Assembly (NCBI GenBank): GCA_947172415.1
Contig: OX359189.1
Coordinates: 2,936,501-3,000,500, forward strand
Direction of reading: 5' to 3'
Length of the DNA stretch: 64,000 nt
Source: Chondrosia reniformis
Taxonomy: Eukaryota > Porifera > Demospongiae > Chondrillida > Chondrillidae
The notes under the pieces were generated by a model. That model did not search any database. It was not told where the DNA came from and worked only from the letters and a program-made list of their open reading frames with translations. The position numbers and the translations under genes were made by a program. Position 1 is the first letter of the stretch; the number at the start of each line of letters is the position of its first letter. This document shows, in pieces, positions 12,501-50,643 of this stretch.

Positions 12501-15500
12501 ATGCCTCCCAAAAAGCAGCAAAAGAACGGTTTCTTTTATTTCATGCAAGAAGAACAAAATCAAATTTTCAGGAACTCTGGACGAAGAGTGCCTATGAGGA
12601 GTATGCCAGGTATATCTGGTCCCAGGTGGAGCGTAAGTACAAGTATATACAAGACACCATTGAAATGAATTGTCTGACTTTCTCATATCTGACCAGTAGT
12701 AGAATATAATGCAGTAGTTCTTAGCAGGTCACGTGGCACTCTTAATATACTATACTGTATATATTGTTCAAACCCCACCAGCCACTAGTACTTAAAGGAG
12801 ACCATTTGATGGTGCTTTGTGGATCGCCATTATTCTCCATTTTGAGTAGTTTATATATAAAAATCTCGTCCAAAGATCGTGTTGTACTTGTATGTCAAAT
12901 AAAAACGACCCTGCAGTGAATGTATTTTGACTAAAGTTTATCTCTATAAACATCCATCCCAGCCCACCAGTCTCTACAGGTAGGATTCAATCAGCTCTTT
13001 CCTCAGTGTAAAATAAATGACATTAACACATTATGGTGTTAAATTTTAAATGTATTAAAGATCCTGGTACATATATTACACTACTTCAAATAGCCTTTCA
13101 AAAGTAGATTGACCATTCATAATGTATCTTTTTGTATTACCCTACAGCTCCTTATACCCTTTACATTAGACATTATATCCTACAGCTCCTTATACTCTTT
13201 ACATTAGACATTATACCCTACAGCTCCTTATACTCTTTACATTAGACATTATACCCTACAGCTCCTTATACTCTTTCCATTAGACATTATATCCTACAGC
13301 TCCTTATACTCTTTCCATTAGACATTATACCCTACAGCTCCTTATACTCTTTCCATTAGACATTATATCCTACAGCTACTTATACCCTTTCCATTAGACA
13401 TTATATCCTACAGCTCCTTATACTCTTTCCATTAGACATTATACCCTACAGCTCCTTATACTCTTTACATTAGACATTATACCCTACAGCTCCTTATACC
13501 CTTTACATTAGACATTATATCCTACAGCCCCTTATACCCTTTCCATTAGACATTATATCCTACAGCTCCTTATACCCTTTCCATTAGACATTATATCCTA
13601 CAGCTCCTTATACTCTTTCCATTAGACATTATACACTACAGCTCCTTATACTCTTTACATTAGACATTATACCCTACAGCTCCTTATACTCTTTACATTA
13701 GACATTATATCCTACAGCCCCTTATACTCTTTACATTAGACATTATATCCTACAGCCCCTTATACCCTTTCTATTAGACATTATATCCTACAGCTCCTTA
13801 TATCCTTTCCATTAGACATTATACCCTACAGCTCCTTATACTCTTTCCATTAGACATTATACCCTACAGCTCCTTATACTCTTTCCATTAGACATTATAC
13901 CCTACAGCTCCTTATGCTCTTTCCATTAGACATTATACCCTACAGCTCCTTATATCCTTTCCATTAGACATTATAACCTACAGCTCCTTATACTCTTTCC
14001 ATTAGACATTATAACCTACAGCTCCTTATACTCTTTCCATTAGACATTATACCCTACAGCTCCTTATGCTCTTTACATTAGACATTATACCCTACAGCTC
14101 CTTATACTCTTTCCATTAGACATTATACCCTACAGCTCCTTATATCCTTTCCATTAGACATTATACCCTACAGCTCCGTATACCCTTTACATTAGACATT
14201 ATACCCTACAGCTCCTTATGCTCTTTACATTAGACATTATACCCTACAGCTCCTTATACTCTTTCCATTAGACATTATACACTACAGCTCCTTATACTCT
14301 TTCCATTAGACATTATATCCTACAGCTCCTTATACCCTTTCCATTAGACATTATATCCTACAGCTCCGTATACTCTTTCCATTAGACATTATACCCTACA
14401 GCTCCTTATACTCTTTCCATTAGACATTATACCCTACAGCTCCTTATACTCTTTCCATTAGACATTATACACTACAGCTCCTTATACTCTTTCCATTAGA
14501 CATTATATCCTACAGCTCCTTATACCCTTTCCATTAGACATTATATCCTACAGCTCCTTATACTCTTTCCATTAGACATTATACCCTACAGCTCCTTATA
14601 CTCTTTCCATTAGACATTATACCCTACAGCTCCTTATACTCTTTCCATTAGACATTATATCCTACAGCTCCTTATACTCTTTCCATTAGACATTATACAC
14701 TACAGCTCCTTATACTCTTTACATTAGACATTATACCCTACAGCTCCTTATACTCTTTCCATTAGACATTATACCCTACAGCTCCTTATACTCTTTACAT
14801 TAGACATTATACCCTACAGCTCCTTATACTCTTTCCATTAGACATTATACACTACAGCTCCGTATACCCTTTCCATTAGACATTATATCCTACAGCTCCT
14901 TATACTACTTACATTAGACATTATATCCTACAGCTACTTATACCCTTTCCATTAGACATTATATCCTACAGCTCCTTATACTCTTTCCATTAGACATTAT
15001 ATCCTACAGCTCCTTATACTCTTTCCATTAGACATTATATCCTACAGCTCCTTATACTACTTACATTAGACATTATATCCTACAGCTCCTTATACTACTT
15101 ACATTAGACATTATACCCTACAGCTCCTTATACCCTTTCCATTAGACATTATATCCTACAGCTCCTTATACTCTTTCCATTAGACATTATACCTTACAGC
15201 TCCTTATACTCTTTACATTAGACATTATACCCTACAGCTCCTTATACTCTTTCCATTAGACATTATACCCTACAGCTCCTTATACTCTTTACATTAGACA
15301 TTATACCCTACAGCTCCTTATGCTCTTTCCATTAGACATTATACCCTACAGCTCCTTATGCTCTTTCCATTAGACATTATACCTTACAGCTCCTTATACT
15401 CTTTCCATTAGACATTATACCCTACAGCTCCTTATACTCTTTACATTAGACATTATATCCTACAGCTACTTATACTCTTTCCATTAGACATTATACCCTA

Positions 15501-18500
15501 CAACTCCTTATACTCTTTCCATTAGACATTATACACTACAGCTCCTTATACTCTTTACATTAGACATTATATCCTACAGCTCCTTATATCCTTTACATTA
15601 GACATTATACCCTACAGCTCCTTATACTCTTTACATTAGACATTATACCCTACAGCTCCTTATACTCTTTCCATTAGACATTATATCCTACAGCTCCTTA
15701 TACTCTTTCCATTAGACATTATACCCTACAGCTCCTTATACTCTTTCCATTAGACATTATATCCTACAGCTACTTATACCCTTTCCATTAGACATTATAT
15801 CCTACAGCTCCTTATACTCTTTCCATTAGACATTATACCCTACAGCTCCTTATACTCTTTACATTAGACATTATACCCTACAGCTCCTTATACCCTTTAC
15901 ATTAGACATTATACCCTACAGCCCCTTATACCCTTTCCATTAGACATTATATCCTACAGCTCCTTATACCCTTTCCATTAGACATTATATCCTACAGCTC
16001 CTTATACTCTTTCCATTAGACATTATACACTACAGCTCCTTATACTCTTTACATTAGACATTATACCCTACAGCTCCTTATACTCTTTACATTAGACATT
16101 ATATCCTACAGCCCCTTATACTCTTTACATTAGACATTATATCCTACAGCCCCTTATACCCTTTCTATTAGACATTATATCCTACAGCTCCTTATATCCT
16201 TTCCATTAGACATTATACCCTACAGCTCCTTATACTCTTTCCATTAGACATTATACCCTACAGCTCCTTATACTCTTTCCATTAGACATTATACCCTACA
16301 GCTCCTTATGCTCTTTCCATTAGACATTATACCCTACAGCTCCTTATATCCTTTCCATTAGACATTATAACCTACAGCTCCTTATACTCTTTCCATTAGA
16401 CATTATAACCTACAGCTCCTTATACTCTTTCCATTAGACATTATACCCTACAGCTCCTTATGCTCTTTACATTAGACATTATACCCTACAGCTCCTTATA
16501 CTCTTTCCATTAGACATTATACCCTACAGCTCCTTATATCCTTTCCATTAGACATTATACCCTACAGCTCCGTATACCCTTTACATTAGACATTATACCC
16601 TACAGCTCCTTATGCTCTTTACATTAGACATTATACCCTACAGCTCCTTATACTCTTTCCATTAGACATTATACACTACAGCTCCTTATACTCTTTCCAT
16701 TAGACATTATATCCTACAGCTCCTTATACCCTTTCCATTAGACATTATATCCTACAGCTCCGTATACTCTTTCCATTAGACATTATACCCTACAGCTCCT
16801 TATACTCTTTCCATTAGACATTATACCCTACAGCTCCTTATACTCTTTCCATTAGACATTATACACTACAGCTCCTTATACTCTTTCCATTAGACATTAT
16901 ATCCTACAGCTCCTTATACCCTTTCCATTAGACATTATATCCTACAGCTCCTTATACTCTTTCCATTAGACATTATACCCTACAGCTCCTTATACTCTTT
17001 CCATTAGACATTATACCCTACAGCTCCTTATACTCTTTCCATTAGACATTATATCCTACAGCTCCTTATACTCTTTCCATTAGACATTATACACTACAGC
17101 TCCTTATACTCTTTACATTAGACATTATACCCTACAGCTCCTTATACTCTTTCCATTAGACATTATACCCTACAGCTCCTTATACTCTTTACATTAGACA
17201 TTATACCCTACAGCTCCTTATACTCTTTCCATTAGACATTATACACTACAGCTCCGTATACCCTTTCCATTAGACATTATATCCTACAGCTCCTTATACT
17301 ACTTACATTAGACATTATATCCTACAGCTACTTATACCCTTTCCATTAGACATTATATCCTACAGCTCCTTATACTCTTTCCATTAGACATTATATCCTA
17401 CAGCTCCTTATACTCTTTCCATTAGACATTATATCCTACAGCTCCTTATACTACTTACATTAGACATTATATCCTACAGCTCCTTATACTACTTACATTA
17501 GACATTATACCCTACAGCTCCTTATACCCTTTCCATTAGACATTATATCCTACAGCTCCTTATACTCTTTCCATTAGACATTATACCTTACAGCTCCTTA
17601 TACTCTTTACATTAGACATTATACCCTACAGCTCCTTATACTCTTTCCATTAGACATTATACCCTACAGCTCCTTATACTCTTTACATTAGACATTATAC
17701 CCTACAGCTCCTTATGCTCTTTCCATTAGACATTATACCCTACAGCTCCTTATGCTCTTTCCATTAGACATTATACCTTACAGCTCCTTATACTCTTTCC
17801 ATTAGACATTATACCCTACAGCTCCTTATACTCTTTACATTAGACATTATATCCTACAGCTACTTATACTCTTTCCATTAGACATTATACCCTACAACTC
17901 CTTATACTCTTTCCATTAGACATTATACACTACAGCTCCTTATACTCTTTACATTAGACATTATATCCTACAGCTACTTATACTCTTTCCATTAGACATT
18001 ATACCCTACAACTCCTTATACTCTTTCCATTAGACATTATACCCTACAGCTCCTTATACTCTTTACATTAGACATTATATCCTACAGCTACTTATACTCT
18101 TTCCATTAGACATTATACCCTACAACTCCTTATACTCTTTCCATTAGACATTATACACTACAGCTCCTTATACTCTTTACATTAGACATTATATCCTACA
18201 GCTCCTTATATCCTTTACATTAGACATTATACCCTACAGCTCCTTATACTCTTTACATTAGACATTATACCCTACAGCTCCTTATACTCTTTCCATTAGA
18301 CATTATATCCTACAGCTCCTTATACTCTTTCCATTAGACATTATACCCTACAGCTCCTTATACTCTTTCCATTAGACATTATATCCTACAGCTACTTATA
18401 CCCTTTCCATTAGACATTATATCCTACAGCTCCTTATACTCTTTCCATTAGACATTATACCCTACAGCTCCTTATACTCTTTACATTAGACATTATACCC

Positions 18501-21500
18501 TACAGCTCCTTATACCCTTTACATTAGACATTATACCCTACAGCCCCTTATACCCTTTCCATTAGACATTATATCCTACAGCTCCTTATACCCTTTCCAT
18601 TAGACATTATATCCTACAGCTCCTTATACTCTTTCCATTAGACATTATACACTACAGCTCCTTATACTCTTTACATTAGACATTATACCCTACAGCTCCT
18701 TATACTCTTTACATTAGACATTATATCCTACAGCCCCTTATACTCTTTACATTAGACATTATATCCTACAGCCCCTTATACCCTTTCTATTAGACATTAT
18801 ATCCTACAGCTCCTTATATCCTTTCCATTAGACATTATACCCTACAGCTCCTTATACTCTTTCCATTAGACATTATACCCTACAGCTCCTTATACTCTTT
18901 CCATTAGACATTATACCCTACAGCTCCTTATGCTCTTTCCATTAGACATTATACCCTACAGCTCCTTATATCCTTTCCATTAGACATTATAACCTACAGC
19001 TCCTTATACTCTTTCCATTAGACATTATAACCTACAGCTCCTTATACTCTTTCCATTAGACATTATACCCTACAGCTCCTTATGCTCTTTACATTAGACA
19101 TTATACCCTACAGCTCCTTATACTCTTTCCATTAGACATTATACCCTACAGCTCCTTATATCCTTTCCATTAGACATTATACCCTACAGCTCCGTATACC
19201 CTTTACATTAGACATTATACCCTACAGCTCCTTATGCTCTTTACATTAGACATTATACCCTACAGCTCCTTATACTCTTTCCATTAGACATTATACACTA
19301 CAGCTCCTTATACTCTTTCCATTAGACATTATATCCTACAGCTCCTTATACCCTTTCCATTAGACATTATATCCTACAGCTCCGTATACTCTTTCCATTA
19401 GACATTATACCCTACAGCTCCTTATACTCTTTCCATTAGACATTATACCCTACAGCTCCTTATACTCTTTCCATTAGACATTATACACTACAGCTCCTTA
19501 TACTCTTTCCATTAGACATTATATCCTACAGCTCCTTATACCCTTTCCATTAGACATTATATCCTACAGCTCCTTATACTCTTTCCATTAGACATTATAC
19601 CCTACAGCTCCTTATACTCTTTCCATTAGACATTATACCCTACAGCTCCTTATACTCTTTCCATTAGACATTATATCCTACAGCTCCTTATACTCTTTCC
19701 ATTAGACATTATACACTACAGCTCCTTATACTCTTTACATTAGACATTATACCCTACAGCTCCTTATACTCTTTCCATTAGACATTATACCCTACAGCTC
19801 CTTATACTCTTTACATTAGACATTATACCCTACAGCTCCTTATACTCTTTCCATTAGACATTATACACTACAGCTCCGTATACCCTTTCCATTAGACATT
19901 ATATCCTACAGCTCCTTATACTACTTACATTAGACATTATATCCTACAGCTACTTATACCCTTTCCATTAGACATTATATCCTACAGCTCCTTATACTCT
20001 TTCCATTAGACATTATATCCTACAGCTCCTTATACTCTTTCCATTAGACATTATATCCTACAGCTCCTTATACTACTTACATTAGACATTATATCCTACA
20101 GCTCCTTATACTACTTACATTAGACATTATACCCTACAGCTCCTTATACCCTTTCCATTAGACATTATATCCTACAGCTCCTTATACTCTTTCCATTAGA
20201 CATTATACCTTACAGCTCCTTATACTCTTTACATTAGACATTATACCCTACAGCTCCTTATACTCTTTCCATTAGACATTATACCCTACAGCTCCTTATA
20301 CTCTTTACATTAGACATTATACCCTACAGCTCCTTATGCTCTTTCCATTAGACATTATACCCTACAGCTCCTTATGCTCTTTCCATTAGACATTATACCT
20401 TACAGCTCCTTATACTCTTTCCATTAGACATTATACCCTACAGCTCCTTATACTCTTTACATTAGACATTATATCCTACAGCTACTTATACTCTTTCCAT
20501 TAGACATTATACCCTACAACTCCTTATACTCTTTCCATTAGACATTATACACTACAGCTCCTTATACTCTTTACATTAGACATTATATCCTACAGCTCCT
20601 TATATCCTTTACATTAGACATTATATCCTACAGCTCCTTATACTCTTTCCGTTAGACATTATATCCTACAGCTCCTTATATCCTTTACATTAGACATTAT
20701 ATCCTACAGCTCCGTATACTCTTTACATTAGACATTATACCCTACAGCTCCTTATACCCTTTCCATTAGACATTATATCCTACAGCTCCTTATACTCTTT
20801 CCATTAGACATTATACTATACAGCTCCTTATACTCTTTACATTAGACATTATACCCTACAGCTCCTTATACTCTTTCCATTAGACATTATACCCTACAGC
20901 TCCTTATACTCTTTACATTAGACATTATACCCTACAGCTCCTTATGCTCTTTCCATTAGACATTATACCCTACAGCTCCTTATGCTCTTTCCATTAGACA
21001 TTATACCTTACAGCTCCTTATACTCTTTCCATTAGACATTATACCCTACAGCTCCTTATACTCTTTACATTAGACATTATATCCTACAGCTACTTATACT
21101 CTTTCCATTAGACATTATACCCTACAGCTCCTTATACTCTTTCCATTAGACATTATACACTACAGCTCCTTATACTCTTTCCATTAGACATTATATCCTA
21201 CAGCTCCTTATATCCTTTACATTAGACATTATATCCTACAGCTCCTTATACTCTTTCCGTTAGACATTATATCCTACAGCTCCTTATATCCTTTACATTA
21301 GACATTATACCCTACAGCTCCTTATGCTCTTTCCGTTAGGCAATGACTGAGCTGGAGAAGGCCCCATATGTTGCTATGGCTAAACAAGAGAAGAAGAACC
21401 CAAATGGTGTTGTGAGGGATGGTCGTCGTGACAATCATGGAGAACTCTTGTCGGTGAGTTACAAAATAGAATTTTGATACTGTACAGGTTCAGTATAATA

Positions 21501-24500
21501 AGAAGACTAATCAGGGTGTCTTTTCAAGGTTAATGGGGCATTGCTCCTGCTTAAAAATTTCCCCCTTCCTCTAAAAATCACTTTGCCTAATGTTAATAGC
21601 AAATAGACAGGTTGTCCCTCAGCTATATTGCTATATTGCATAAGCTGTAAATGGGAACACAGTCTTAATTCACTATAACACATGTTACATAGTGGAAGAT
21701 CCTGTATACCTGACCATACATTCCATTACCGACTACTTCTATCAACTCAAATAGTCCATTGGGATTCTACAGGGAGAACAGTTTGTCCTGACAGATAAAG
21801 CTAGCTTGACTTTCAATGTATTTCATGTTATCCTTCTTTCGGTTGTACTGTTGTATTGTAATTTGCTTAGTTAGTTTATGATTTAGAATTTCATATTCTT
21901 GAGAATTGTGTTGCTCATGCTTGAGTACTTTGCATTAGGAGCGTAAAGATGCCTTACTGGAACTGGAAGAGAGAAGAGAACGTGAAGGAGCTGAAATTAA
22001 AAAGAGACTTGCCAAGGGAAGAGGTGTGTGAACGTTTCTGAAACATAACAATAAAGCTTTTCATATATGTAAGGTGTCCATTGCAGTCATTGTGTAAAGG
22101 TGTGTGTCTTACTGTAGTATACGTAATACGCTATTATAGTTCACATACCAAATGAGGCAATGACTGTTTCACAGAGTCAAGGTTTTATTGACTACATATG
22201 TGCTATAATTATACTTTTCCTGTAGAAGCAGCAATGCAGGAATTTTACTTTGTAGATTTCCAATATCTTGCTGAATTACCAGATGATGAGACTGTAAGTA
22301 TTTCAATCAAATATCCTCAACCAAGTAATTATGTACGTAAGTGTGTATATGCTAGACTTTCCTCTCTCTCTTAGGATCTTCCATACCAACCAGTTGAAAT
22401 TGGTCTGGTTAAATACTCAATTGAATCTGGAATTGCTTCTTCTATACAGAAATTCATAGACCCAGGTATATATACACTAAAGAAGTGTTTATATATTCAT
22501 CAAAGTGATAATTACGAATCACTACATACAGAGTATTCCACTTAATCTGCCACAATTGGCTCGGGTAATCTTGAGTCACGTTGAAGGGTTGGTAGATTAC
22601 AGTGGAACCTTCCTGATCCGACTCCTCTATAATCCAAAATTAGGTGGTTATCCAGTGTACCGTATATCGGGATATGAATGCAAGAGTTAAAGATTGCGAA
22701 TTACGCGTTTAAGTAAACATTGCAGTTAAAGAATGTGAGATAAAGCTTAGGTGTATGGGACGTGTATACGAAATTATGAGGTGTCAAATCAATACCTGTC
22801 AAAAGATTGCGCATACAGTCAAAACTCACAATTCGCATTCTTTTGACACACGCATTGAATTCCCGATATACAGTATATATCTTTCAGTCTCTGTTATATA
22901 CATAAGACGAAGTGCATTAAGTATACATATGTTCTTTCATCTTGCTTTCCAGGTAAAATCCCGCTTGGATACAGGTGTATCTGCCAAATGCATAGTGATA
23001 AGACACACAAAATTCCTCTAGATGGATTCCCATTGGCTGAAACCAACTACAGAGAGATTTTGTCTGAAATTGAGAGATTCATAAATCCTTCTCAATCGCA
23101 TCAAAGGCCTCCTCTCTTTGCACCAGTATGTCACACTCTATAAGCTGTGTTTAAGATGGGGTTCCCCTTTCAGAACTCCACTTGCCAATTCATACAGTGA
23201 GACACCTACAGTTCAGGCACCATGCAAAACATAGGAAGTGTCCTTGCCTCTAAGATCACCAGAGGTTTCAAAGTTTGAAACTCACCTACGTACATTATAT
23301 AACACATCTACTTTAGAGTAAAAGGCCTATAGGGAACCTAGTTAGGGCTTTGGATGAGGATACCCGACTGAGTTTTCTTCTCCTACTTCTCTTCTTTTCC
23401 ACTGGGCCACATACATATATATGTACGTATGTACGTACATTACGTATACATACATGTATATGTACGTACGTACATTAAGTACGTTTCCCCATGCACCATT
23501 TCCTGCATCTATGTATTGTGATCTTACTAATGTTTCTTTCCATCTTTAGCGTCTCCGGGCTCAAATGAGCGAGCAGTGTCTACTGTGGATGGCTGAACAG
23601 TCCGGCATAGCATGTATATTCTCTGTTTATGAGCTGGAGACACTCATCAAACTGCTCTGTGACAATATCGACCCAGAGAGCAACATGACCATTCATATTG
23701 CAGAAAGAAACCTCTCCACAGAAGCATGGAATTACAGCAGTGGGATCCGTTGCCCCTACCACCACAGAGAGGACATACAACACTGTAGCTTGGCTGCAGT
23801 CAAAAAGTACTGGTATGTCAACCAATATTATGTATGTATGTACGTATGTATGTATGATTCTGTAGGAATTTGTGGTTAGTAATAGAGCATATTTCAGTCT
23901 ACAGCGTTTTCAAATGAATTAGGTACCGTATTTGTCTGTATAGAAGCTGGGTCTCGTTTAGAGGCTGGAGATCAGCTGGGCTATTTATAAATAGAAGCTG
24001 GGTCTCGTTTAGAGGCTGGAGGTCACCTGGGATATTTATAAATAGAAGCTGGGTCTCGTTTAGAGGGTGGAGGTCAGCTGGGCTATTTGTAAATAGTTAA
24101 ATTGACATACTGGGAGAAGTGTGAACCGATCGCAATGTCTAGCCAGTTTATGCTGCAGTAGCGATACCAAAGTGATAGTCCAACGATATAGTGTAAATTC
24201 ATATGCTGCCATCTGGTGATTGATGTATTTCTATAAAAATATACGTATTTATTTTCACTGTTTCTGCAGCTTTGTTATGTCTGAAGAGTTATGTTCCCGA
24301 TACAATGTGTCCATCACTGACAGACATCTTCCACAAGAGGAATCTTCCCTTGGTGTCATCACCACGTACCAGCCAACTGAAGTAGCCAAACCAAAGGATT
24401 TACCCCAGCGATCATGGACTGCTCCTGTGGGTAGAGGTGCAGTGAGGGAGCAGTCAAGGCCAACTGATCCGAGGCTTTCAAAAGGGCGTGGCAGGGGAAT

Positions 24501-24795
24501 TATGGGGTTGGGTGTACCAAAAGCGCCTCGCACTCCTGCCATTCCAGATGTTACTGATTTTGAACAAGATGAACAAAGAGAACTGCATGTTGGTGAAATT
24601 CAAGCCAGTATACCTCACCCAGCCTCTTCAGGACCGCTGCTACAGGGCCCCTGGGGTGTTAGGCCCCTAGCACCAAGCTACTCTAACCCACTGCCAGTAC
24701 AAGGTGCTTGGGCTATGGGACCTCCCCAGCAGCGATTCCAGTATCCTCAAAGCACAAAACGGCCTCCACCAGGGTTTGCTCCAAAGAAGCATTAA
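12501..24795 (+). CDS. MAEL: Maelstrom (piRNA-pathway HMG-box/MAEL-domain protein)
   Basis: Eight exons: 12501-12632, 21340-21453, 21939-22023, 22226-22293, 22375-22465, 22953-23125, 23550-23812, 24270-24795 (483 aa; human 434). Residues 1 to about 70 form an HMG-like box (NGFFYFMQEEQNQ, then PRWSAMTELEKAPYVAMAKQ). The MAEL domain covers about 110-310, with GKIPLGYRCICQMH, THKIP and RCPYHHREDIQHC, the last being the C-x-x-H...C zinc-ligand pattern of the family. Residues 310-483 are Pro/Gly/Arg rich, with RGRG motifs that could be methylated and read by Tudor proteins (inference). Known family role: transposon silencing with Piwi proteins in the germ line or stem cells. Intron 1 is 8.7 kb and mostly a 38-base tandem array whose final unit is the splice acceptor of exon 2. 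Other introns are short. A possible poly(A) signal ATTAAA is at 24867. Confidence 0.95.
13145..21339 (+). repeat. 216-copy, 38-base tandem array of splice-acceptor-like units
   Basis: Units begin CAGCTCCTTATACTCTTT and continue (C/A)CATTAGACATTATA plus a variable YCCTA end. The first CAGCTCC starts at 13145 and the last at 21315. The difference, 8170, is exactly 215 x 38, so there is no net length change across the array. Each unit holds CTTAT (fits the YUNAY branch site), a pyrimidine run and TTAG, plus a second CYTACAG. The last unit reads CTCTTTCCGTTAG and is followed directly by exon 2 of MAEL. The consensus lacks GT, so it offers no 5' splice sites; GT appears only in CCGTAT and CCGTTAG variants. 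Variants repeat in larger blocks: a unit following a TTTCTATTAG variant begins at 13791, 16185 and 18807 (63 and 69 units apart). Confidence 0.97.
22650..22885. repeat. imperfect inverted-repeat element in MAEL intron 5
   Basis: GTATATCGGGATATGAATGC near 22663 is mirrored by an inverted ATTGAATTCCCGATATAC near 22853, with further loosely matching inner arms. The shape suggests a MITE-like remnant, but the arms are imperfect and no target duplication was found. A nearby ACAGTGGAACCTTCC resembles pogo/Tigger-type ends. Confidence 0.35.
23288..23418 (+). mobile_element. repeat family A, truncated copy in MAEL intron 6
   Basis: Contains the 5' half of the family (ACTTTAGAGTAAAAGGCCTA, then TTTGGATGAGGATAC, then TTCCACTGGGCCA) and stops before the TCTGGGAATTCC part. 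It is followed by a TACGTATGTACG-type simple repeat. Confidence 0.6.
23400..23485. repeat. ACGT/TGTACG-type simple repeat
   Basis: Runs of TATGTACGTACGTACAT and variants, rich in the palindromes GTAC and ACGT. The same kind of run recurs across the window, for example at 33190-33255, 43145-43175 and 45425-45450. Confidence 0.7.
23941..24095. repeat. 51-base tandem repeat, three copies, MAEL intron 7
   Basis: Units start TAGAAGCTGGGTCTCGTTTA at 23941, 23992 and 24043 and end CTATTTATAAA; the third is slightly diverged. A CCGTATTTGTCTG sequence sits just before the first unit. Confidence 0.85.
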
Positions 24796-25107: not shown

Positions 25108-28100
25108 TTACTGCTGGGACATCAGTTGCTTACCCAGGTATTCCCTACATAAATTAAATGCTTGCTAGTAAGGCAATAAGTAGATAAAGAAATAATAATA
25201 TTGAAATTTACCAATTCTGGACCATTATCTTCTGAAGAGCGAGGAGTGCTTGAATGCGTACTTCCGATTCAGTATTTTCAATCAATCTTAGGACTGCCTC
25301 CTTTGCCCCTAAGTTCTCGAGGACACTACAGAAGTCAACAAGTATGAGATCTATAAGAACAATTATTTGACAAAATACACAAATTTATTAACTGTAAGAA
25401 AAGGTTATAGATAAAACTATCATAGCATCCAATGTACTGATAAAGTGATTAAGATAAGCAAAATTCCAAAAACTAAAAGACATTATTTAACACAATTTTA
25501 AGGACAATGGCATACACATTTCAATCACACAAGTAAGCAATAGGTATGATGCTGTTGTATACCGTTTTCCTCTTGGATTGAAGTGTACATATTCTCCCAC
25601 ATCATGGCAGGCAACGGCCTTAGCAAGTGAGGTGGAGGTGGTTTCGTTCATTATTGTAACCAGTTGCCTACCAGAGGGAGGTACAGGCAACAGTAAATAA
25701 GGGAGTATAACCAATAAACGGACATTGAAACATTCTGTAAAGATAGGAGCACACATGAATAATCTAATACACCATTTTTCTTATATACATGCTACATCTA
25801 CTATAGAGTACTGGCCTATAGGGAACTAAACCTAGTGATAGCTTTGGGATGAGGATACAGGAATTGTGCCCTTCTACTTCTCTTCTTCTGAGCTGGACAT
25901 CTGTCTCTGGGAATTCCACCCTTTATCAGTTACCCCGGAAATCTTTGTCTTCTTCTTCTTGATCTTTAGTGATTTCTTGGCTCTCTGTGCTAAATCTAGG
26001 CTAATCGATGTACCTTAACAAGTCATAGTCGTGTTCATGAAACTTTAAAACATTTTCCCTCTATATGTGGAGGGAGAGAGAGGGTGCAGTTGGTTAAAAG
26101 TATACACAAGCACCAAAACAAGTTGCAAGACATTGTGATACTCTGTATTTACCCAAAACTTGTTTGACTTATGCACAGGACTCCATTCTAATCTTCCAGA
26201 CTTCAGTTCTGCAGAATATTCATCAAATGAACTACACACACAAAAGAAATTAATTAAATACATTGTACAAGACTTGCAATAGTAACTACATAAGTAATGT
26301 TCACACGATGTATGCATATTGGATAAGAAAACAGATTAACTCATATCATAGGGAAAATGGACTGGCATATTAAAGGATACATATTAGTCATTATAAGGCA
26401 ATTGCACTCACGTCCATACCTCATGTCATTCACACTGTCTGTTAGATACTCTTGGAGAAACTCAACATCCTTCTGCAAGTCTTCATCCTGAAAATTTTGT
26501 TTAACTAATACATTTAACACCTAATATATATATATATAAAATTGCTCAACATAAAATTTCCAAGGAGTTTAGACAAATAAACTGCTTACACTAAGGACTT
26601 TGTAAGTAACCATTTGGATACCATATGATTCAGCTATTGCGGGTGGTGACTTCTTGAGGAGATTGCAGTAGAAAGCAAAAACTACCCTCCTGACCTTCTC
26701 TCGAGTAGTAGCCCTAAGTGTGTCAGCTGTAGTCACTACAACCTGCGTACTGATACAGTGACATATGAAGAATCTAACGCACCTACATGTTATATCCACT
26801 TTAGAGTAAAGGCCTATGTACGTATATGGAACTAAATCTAGTGAGAGCATTGGATGAGGATACAAGAGTTTTTCTCCTTCTATTTCTTCTCCACTGGGAC
26901 AGACAACTGTTTCTGGAAATTCCACCCTTCATCAGTGACCCTGGAAGTATTTGTCTTCTTATCGATCTTTTGTGAGTCCTTGGCTCACTGTGCTAAATCT
27001 AGAGGTCTTATATACACACTTTTGGTGCCAAATGTTGAATTAAATGTTAACTAAGACACATGACGAAACATACAGTTAAACAGGTATGTACATACGTATA
27101 TAGGACTATCACCTATGGAATATATGCACACGTACAAACATATATGAAAAGAAAAGAAAATTGGCATAATATTGTATCCTTATTCAAAGGTCTAAAGACT
27201 TTCCCTAAGTAATAAATATAGGAGAACAGTCTATAGCTTTCAGAAAAAGGAACAGGAATCAGTCCAGAGAATCCAGGAACCAAAACTCACAATTTGCAAT
27301 TATCAAACTCATAAATGCATACCCGTATATACACAAGCACCTGGTATCAAGAGATTAGTGGCACTATACACTATACATAAGCACCTGGTATCAAGAGATT
27401 AGTGGCACTATACACTATACACAAGCACCTGGTATCAAGAGATTAGTGGCACTATACACTATACACAAGCACCTGGTATCAAGAGATTAGTGGCACTATA
27501 CACAAGCACCTGGTATCAAGAGATTAGTGGCACTATACACTATACATAAGCACCTGGTATCAAGAGATTAGTGGCACTATACACTATACATAAGCACCTG
27601 GTATCAAGAGATTAGTGGCACTATACACTATACATAAGCACCTGGTATCAAGAGATTAGTGGCACTATACACTATACATAAGCACCTGGTATCAAGAGAT
27701 TAGTGGCACTATAAAACACTCACTCTTTCATTTTAACGGCTAGGTCTTCACTAAATGACAACATCCAAATGCAGAACACAACTTGATATTGCAACTGAAA
27801 GTTTGGCTTTTTACTCAAAATATCTGTCAATCTACATATGTACATAAAGATGAATTGGTTTGTAACAATATGGTTGCATATGTATGCATGTATACGTGAA
27901 TAAATCAATTTCATAAGTTGTGGTAGTTATATGCATCAGTCACAAACAAGTGACTACAAACTAAATCAAATCCCAAGTGAAGCTTAAGTGTCATGCCTTT
28001 GAAATTTTTGTTTTATAGAAAAACACACATAAAACAACTAATATCATACGTACCAATAGAGCTGCAAGCAGAACTTAGGGCAAAATGAAACTTTCAAAAT

Positions 28101-49112: not shown

Positions 49113-50643
49113 GAGTTTGCTAATGTATGGTGAGAGATAGGGCAAATCTGAGTAGGTATTAAAAATTGCAGAACTCAATGAAAACATTTCATATATCTCT
49201 GTGAATAATGAGATAGAGTGTTAGATTCATATCTCTTCATTTGGAAGAATTACAGCACTTAATGTACTTTAAATTACTGCTATAAGAATTGAATGTGTGG
49301 TGAGAGATAGGGCAAATTTGAGTAGATATCAAAACTTGAAAAACTCAATGAAAACCTTTCATACATCTCTGTGAGTACTGAGACAGAGTTTCAGATTCAT
49401 ATCTCTTTATTTGGAAGAGTTACAGCACTTAATGTACTTTTTATTACTGCTATAATAATAATAATAATAATTGTTTATTAGTTTGACATGCCATACAAAG
49501 ATTAATAAAGATGGCCCAACCAGTTCAGGTTTACAAGTCACATTACAAAGGAAAGTCATGATAAATACTTCATTGAGTTTTTTACGAATTAAATGTGTGG
49601 TGAGAGATAGGGCAAATTTGAGTATATAGATATCAAAACTTGAAAAACTCAATGAAAATCTTTCATACATCTCTGTGAGTACTGAGACAGAGTTGCAGAT
49701 TCATATCTCTTCATTTGAAAGAGTTACAGCACTTAATGTACTTTAAATTACTGCTATACGAATTAAATGTGTGGTGAGAGATAGGGCAAATTTGAGTATA
49801 TAGATATCAAAACTTGAAAAACTCAATGAAAATCTTTCATACATCTCTGTGAGTACTGAGACAGAGTTGCAGATTCATATCTCTTTCATTTGAAAGAGTT
49901 ACAGCACTTAATGTACTTTTTATTACTGCTATACGAATTGAATGTGTGGTGAGAGATAGGGCAAATTTGAGTAGATATCAAAATTTGCAAAACTCAATGA
50001 AAACCTTTCATACATCTCTGTGAGTACTGAGACAGAGTTTCAGATTCATATCTCTTCATTTGAAAGAGTTACAGCACTTAATGTACTTTTTATTACTGCT
50101 ATACACAGTTAATGTACGTATGGTGAGAGATAGGGCAAATTTGAGTAGATATCAAAATTTGACAAACTCAATGAAAACCTTTCATACATCTCTGTGAATA
50201 CTGAGACAGAGTTTCAGATTCATATCTCTTCATTTGGAAGAGGTACAGCACTTAATGTACTTTAAATTACTGCTATACACAGTTGATGTACGTATGGTGA
50301 GAGATAGGGCAAATTTGAGTAGATATCAAAATTTGCAAAACTCATTGGATGCCTTTCATACATCTCTGTGAATACTGAGATGGAGTTTCAGATTCATACC
50401 TCTTCATTTGGAAGAGTTACAGCAATTAATATAATGTACTCTAAATTGCTGCTATACAAAGTTAATGTATGGTGAGAGATTAGGGCAAATTTGAGTAGAT
50501 GTCAGTATTTACAGGCATGTATGAAACATTTCCAAACCGTTGTTGAAAGAGTTACAGCGCTCAATGTACATTAAATTCTGGTATACAAAGTTAATGTACG
50601 TACGTATGGTGAGAGATAGAGCAAATTATAAGTTACCATCAAA
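49113..50643. repeat. 170-176-base satellite, right block, ending at the HADH start codon
   Basis: About nine units. GGTGAGAGATAG starts at 49129, 49299, 49599, 49772, 49948, 50121, 50296, 50471 and 50609. The long step at 49299-49599 is due to a roughly 130-base insertion near 49455-49583 that contains an ATA run. The last unit reads AAATTATAAGTTACCATCAA just before AATGG, where other units have CATCAAAATTT, so the HADH ATG lies at the satellite edge. Confidence 0.9.

Follow-up and report, generated by a model that had tools for sequence, protein, structure and literature searches.

A 216-unit minisatellite carrying splice acceptor motifs directly precedes exon 2 of a Maelstrom gene in the sponge Chondrosia reniformis

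Introduction

Repeat length is known to alter exon inclusion in CFTR, where a (TG)m(T)n tract in intron 8/9 lies before exon 9/10. Recursive splice sites are acceptor-like sites inside long introns and need the sequence AG|GT. The array of the human IFI6 gene consists of about 26 short units. This donor-site minisatellite (PMC4526556) is the nearest known system to the locus described here, intron 1 of a Maelstrom gene (MAEL) from the sponge Chondrosia reniformis. In both genes a tandem array lies at an exon-intron border and its units carry a splice site. However, IFI6 repeats donors, at least some of which are used in mRNA, while MAEL repeats candidate acceptors and does so in a far longer array of 216 units.

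The CFTR tract resembles the MAEL array in being located directly before an acceptor, but it is a microsatellite within one acceptor, whereas entire acceptors are repeated in MAEL. Recursive sites are likewise acceptor-like sites within a long intron; they differ in their need for AG|GT, as the MAEL array is devoid of AGGT. In the literature searched on repeats and splice sites we noticed no counterpart made of acceptors, and we do not claim that none is in print. The locus is a natural experiment on the choice of a single 3′ splice site by a spliceosome that is offered more than 200 nearly identical candidates.

Results and Discussion

The Maelstrom gene and its first intron

Exons were assigned by eye with a check of the reading frame, and the resulting model was compared to Pfam and to homologues. 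Positions refer to the window, i.e. the whole 64-kb stretch of DNA that was analysed.

12501..24795, plus strand: eight-exon model of the Maelstrom gene (MAEL), encoding 483 aa
12501-12632, 21340-21453, 21939-22023, 22226-22293, plus strand: MAEL exons 1-4
22375-22465, 22953-23125, 23550-23812, 24270-24795, plus strand: MAEL exons 5-8
12633..21339, plus strand: MAEL intron 1, 8707 nt, donor AGC|GTAAGT
13138..21339, plus strand: 216-unit array, unit length 38 bp, consensus ACATTATACCCTACAGCTCCTTATACTCTTTCCATTAG (TRF and unit count)
21302..21339, plus strand: terminal unit, inferred from homology as the acceptor of intron 1, with CTTAT and ending in TTAG
21340..21453, plus strand: MAEL exon 2, length 114 nt, purine content 61%, with the donor GTGAGT after it

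In Pfam, the 483-aa model matches Maelstrom with E=1.2e-40 and, over residues 2-65, HMG_box_2 with E=1.6e-7, so that an HMG box and a Maelstrom domain are both above the cut-off (PF09011 and PF13017); PF00505 is below its own (23.1 vs 25.4 bits). Among the 17 homologues found, the one from amphioxus is best (4.7e-65). The frame is kept when 12501-12632 is joined to 21340-21453. The HMG_box_2 match spans this join, which is located at residue 44, and the 8 homologues that were aligned are all gap-free there. Judged from homology, intron 1 has a GT donor, an AG acceptor and a restored reading frame. Its first 505 nt, 5′ of the array, are not repeated, while the array itself extends up to exon 2 without any offset, the last unit ending at 21339 and exon 2 starting at 21340.

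An earlier note on this DNA had taken the last unit for the true acceptor of intron 1, abutting exon 2 without a gap, and had proposed that the exon 1-exon 2 join restores the HMG-box frame. Abutment and frame were both confirmed, and the sequence together with the gap-free join supports the terminal unit as the probable acceptor. Its putative branch A lies 15 nt ahead of the final G, a distance that is short by vertebrate standards.

Composition of the array

With head-to-tail units in the range of about 10-100 bp, the array is a minisatellite. TRF reports a period of 38 bp and 215.8 copies for 13138-21339, with 94% matches and 0% indels. TTAG occurs 216 times, so that 216 units can be counted, and the spacing is exactly 38 bp in all 215 intervals. 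The units represent 33 different sequences. In unit 1, 5 of the first 6 positions deviate from the consensus, and the terminal unit is identical to the consensus at 36 of 38 positions. While TTAG is present in every unit, the branch-like CTTAT is found in 206 of 216. The earlier note had correctly reported 216 copies of a 38-base unit that carries CTTAT and TTAG, although it placed the start of the array at 13145, which is 7 bases late.

The array is 33% purine (67% pyrimidine) and contains neither GAA nor GAG. There are 427 AG dinucleotides and 13 GT. Besides the last one, the AGs comprise 215 in TTAG and 211 in TACAG, the AG of the latter being AA in 5 of the 216 units. Recursive splicing within the array was considered and rejected, as it requires AG|GT and AGGT is absent from the array.

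Effect of decoy acceptors on the protein

The terminal acceptor was replaced in silico by each of the other AGs of the array while the donor of exon 2 was kept. All 426 decoys lead to truncated proteins of 46-81 aa. From the 215 TTAG decoys, products of 81 aa (207 cases), 46 aa (6 cases), 58 aa and 72 aa (one case each) result; the 211 TACAG decoys lead to 63 aa except for a single product of 54 aa. Accurate choice of the last unit is thus required for full-length Maelstrom, and any wrong choice inside the array would show up as a truncated product.

It had been argued in the earlier note that the units contain no GT in consensus and that decoys therefore cannot close an exon. The first part is correct for the consensus, but there are 13 GT in the array and GTATAC is found in 10 units, each time 20 nt past a TTAG. 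This hexamer is close to the donor of MAEL intron 5, CAG|GTATAT. The second part could not be sustained: the absence of GT is no safeguard because a decoy does not need a donor of its own and can pair with that of exon 2. For a consensus with two G, the lack of GT is also unremarkable: after shuffling, 7645 of 20000 units (38%) are equally devoid of it.

Splice sites were also scored by position weights. Training on ab initio introns was attempted three times and yielded 20, 19 and 31 introns; the first set consisted mostly of purine repeats, and the second, which had been seeded with MAEL sites, recovered only one of the 7 MAEL introns. With the crude score from the 31-intron set, a poor training set, all 215 TTAG decoys exceed the real acceptor (mean 7.32 vs 5.61). 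On that score, with its poor training, site strength would not explain the choice of the last unit. It would not surprise us if decoys were used to some extent.

Acceptor likeness and constraint on the units

A simple rule was applied to recognise acceptors, calling for YAG, at least 13 pyrimidines among 17 positions and YTNAY 12-40 nt upstream with no AG between; it accepts 4 of the 7 MAEL acceptors. In the array there are 198 such sites on the plus strand (24.1 per kb), 197 of them at TTAG, and none on the reverse strand. Together with TTAG in all units and CTTAT in 206, this places a splice-site motif in each unit. Elsewhere in the sample 210 sites were found in 527,586 strand-bases (0.40 per kb). 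As the array repeats one unit, however, a single unit is the fair control, and 1060 of 10000 shuffled units yield an acceptor-like site. The likeness therefore follows partly from composition. By itself it is weak, and it is the exact position at the exon that bears the argument.

These figures bear on the possibility that an ordinary minisatellite arose independently inside the intron and extended until it reached the exon. Its last unit would then have replaced the original acceptor, and the likeness would be a by-product of composition. Arrays are indeed common in this genome (65 with a period of at least 15, the MAEL array included, cover 43,794 of 272,001 sampled bases), and about 11% of shuffled units are acceptor-like. 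We nevertheless consider such an origin rather unlikely, as the end of the array coincides with the exon boundary, in the phase that closes with TTAG, and as its unit is found nowhere else in the genome.

Fifteen positions of the unit are variable, 8 of which are C in the consensus. The invariance of TTAG across units has P=0.12, and a comparison of branch site plus TTAG with the remaining positions gives P=0.05. We do not take these values as constraint, and purifying selection on the units is not supported. Decoys have not been purged from the array.

It could also be imagined that the array is functional: decoys would compete with the last acceptor, copy number or the level of a splicing factor would set the amount of full-length Maelstrom, and truncated products would represent the off state. 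Truncation by every one of the 426 other AGs and the intact TTAG of all 216 units would fit such a role, and the donor minisatellite of human IFI6 is a precedent, as described in PMC4526556, for repeat units serving as splice sites. With no sign of constraint at either motif, we regard this as very unlikely. Regulation of splicing by copy number is possible but unsupported, and the same holds for the role in splicing choice or timing that the earlier note had suggested.

Growth and origin of the array

Long runs of units recur within the array.

15412..17957, plus strand: units 61-127, base-for-base identical to units 130-196 (18034-20579)
13550..15601, plus strand: units 12-65, identical to units 144-197 (18566-20617)

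In addition, units 12-64 are identical to units 75-127 (15944-17957). These runs of 67, 54 and 53 consecutive units reappear 69, 132 and 63 units further on, respectively, and the latest growth thus proceeded by blocks of 2.0-2.5 kb. The identical blocks indicate that this growth is recent. Units 2-205 show 1.43-1.54 mismatches to the consensus on average, compared to 1.73 for the last 11 units.

Blocks that are identical to the base might also result from an assembly in which parts of a real array were wrongly repeated, so that the copy number is in error. The published assembly of C. reniformis has 117.37 Mb in 14 chromosomal scaffolds plus the mitochondrion (PMC12181767). It is based, according to the same source, on 10.31 Gb in 0.80 million HiFi reads and has a QV of 69.8 (PMC12181767). 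This corresponds to a mean read length of about 12.9 kb, so that many reads should be able to span the 8.2-kb array; furthermore, there is no N within the window. We consider an erroneous copy number highly improbable.

The unit is private to the MAEL array. When the genome (117,379,552 bases, 15 contigs) was searched with a 22-base part of the unit and up to 3 mismatches, 216 of the 218 forward matches were the array itself, and the backward control gave 2 matches. Another search with the unit returned 44 matches, 43 in the array and one at C11. The C11 match was rejected as a further copy, since it sits in an array of the 7-mer ATACCCT. No degenerate units were detected in the 5′ flank of the array, where 129 of 300 shuffles scored as well.

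The array had been described in the earlier note as an expansion of the gene's own acceptor, and a head-to-tail repetition of the acceptor region is indeed supported by sequence and homology. That the end of the array coincides with the exon boundary speaks for an origin from the acceptor. While the array, the gene model, the reading-frame effect of each decoy and the further examples given below are direct observations, we infer that the last acceptor is used in RNA, that the array originated from it, and that it is tolerated by virtue of exon definition. We consider it probable, based on sequence, that we are dealing with an intronic minisatellite which grew out of the 3′-terminal part of MAEL intron 1, and the last copy of which still serves as acceptor.

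Most likely, the 3′ end of the intron was duplicated in tandem and then amplified. Copies would have multiplied, in the last phase by duplication of 2.0-2.5 kb blocks, and the last copy would still act as acceptor. Splicing accuracy would be kept by exon definition favouring the terminal unit. Purine motifs and a nearby donor aid acceptor choice. Only the terminal unit has a G next to it, then a purine-rich exon, which carries two GARGAR motifs, and then the GTGAGT donor after 114 nt, whereas upstream copies have the purine-poor array downstream, lacking GAA and GAG. Exons begun 1-4 units upstream would have a length of only 152-266 nt, and exon definition alone therefore need not exclude them. 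If allele lengths differ, the locus would tie repeat instability to a gene of the piRNA pathway.

Other introns ending in arrays

Arrays were surveyed in 322,001 bases, consisting of the window, stretch L009 and 25 stretches of 10 kb, and 62 arrays with a length of 60 nt or more were retained. Ten are strongly pyrimidine-rich (at least 73% on one strand); the MAEL array, with 67%, is not among these. Three of the ten end 10-27 nt before the acceptor of a homology-checked exon, namely in an ARL6-like gene and in two GALNT introns, and a SOS-like intron is probably the fourth array-ended case.

L024 6185-8064 (C1, near 2.006-2.008 Mb), minus strand: intron of an ARL6-like gene, length 1880 nt, of which 1807 nt are an array of a 27-bp unit in 66 copies
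L009 907-1304 and 1510-1590, minus strand: two adjacent GALNT introns, mostly CT-rich arrays before TACAG
L023 9279-9628, plus strand: SOS-like gene, CT-rich array ending 5 nt before CAACAG

The ARL6-like array stops 27 nt before the acceptor CCCCCTAG, and the joined exons match PDB 2h57 at 3.8e-21 with a gap-free join. In the GALNT gene, the arrays account for 398 of 436 nt and for 81 of 132 nt of their introns; the exons match PDB 6e4q at 7.6e-71, and neither join is gapped, a one-residue alignment gap occurring a few residues past the first. For the SOS-like gene, upstream exons match PDB 1q9c at 4.2e-17, but the two exons flanking the array, taken by themselves, gave no match better than E=0.74. 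Two further candidates rest on open frames alone (L018 7504-8079 and L021 9821-9884), and their putative exons match no Pfam family above the cut-off. No exon at such a short distance was seen at L018 5867-6203, L033 3394-3575, L021 658-981 and L021 8317-8587. L009 had been fetched for a weak match to the MAEL unit and is thus no random draw; without it, there are one checked, one likely and two putative cases among eight pyrimidine-rich arrays.

The ARL6-like, GALNT and SOS-like introns are similar to MAEL intron 1 in that an array ends close to the acceptor, 5-27 nt before it. These arrays have 81-1807 nt and are 84-98% pyrimidine, compared to 67% in MAEL, and they differ from MAEL in their units; an offset of 0 is found only in MAEL. 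Of the arrays observed at 3′ ends of introns in this genome, that of MAEL is the largest, yet it is no one-off, and introns ending in arrays are a real class by example.

Automated tests did not prove an enrichment of arrays at acceptors. When array ends were scanned for adjoining exons, 3 of the 67 arrays were flagged, namely that of MAEL and one each in L009 and L023. At thresholds 3, 4 and 5, exons were found on the strongly pyrimidine-rich strand at 3, 1 and 1 of 10 downstream ends vs 0, 0 and 0 of 10 opposite ends, and in the weaker pyrimidine class at 2, 1 and 1 of 14 vs 0, 0 and 0 of 14. The corresponding figures are 2, 2 and 1 of 69 for neutral arrays and 6.4, 4.7 and 4.6% for random positions. 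A scan for exon segments gave, at the threshold used, 224 segments vs 127 on reversed sequence and recovered 4 of the 8 MAEL exons; in the same sample, 11 arrays were located 5′ of segments vs 10 that were 3′. Ten DEAD-box loci, drawn from 38 matches for their short open frames before repeats were looked at, had no array in the 500 nt upstream of the match, distances being taken from the match and not from fixed exon borders; this speaks against array-ended introns being frequent. At L039 and L041 arrays begin 26 and 33 nt beyond the 3′ end of the match, nearer to the donor side.

Because repeat arrays are also found at the ends of further introns of this sponge, we regard the MAEL array as an apparently extreme example of repeat growth at an intron end and not as a proven switch. 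These further introns suggest that minisatellites can be born in acceptor regions; the published genome, its annotation and the RNA-seq data would allow such cases to be counted. A more far-reaching proposal would be that 3′ splice sites seed minisatellites genome-wide and that the MAEL array is a length-tunable competitor, allele length setting full-length Maelstrom and thereby the activity of the germ-line piRNA pathway; we consider this hardly probable. The locus is of value because it is clean and open to testing, and because it draws attention to the array-ended introns of this sponge.

Three other repeats were noticed. At L010 2534-2602 (plus strand), there are 2.2 copies of a 34-bp unit with the sequence TTCCTTTGYAG, closely followed by an open frame for which no Pfam or PDB match was obtained. 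This is possibly an acceptor duplicated once or twice, and thus an early stage of the same process. An array of 8.9 copies of a 44-bp unit at window positions 27328-27713 has units that read ACCAG|GTGC on the minus strand, an AG|GT site. Finally, a satellite-like repeat of 169-174 bp occurs at 49122-50504 of the window and also in L010, L012, L017, L020 and L022, where it reaches up to 8.2 kb (L022).
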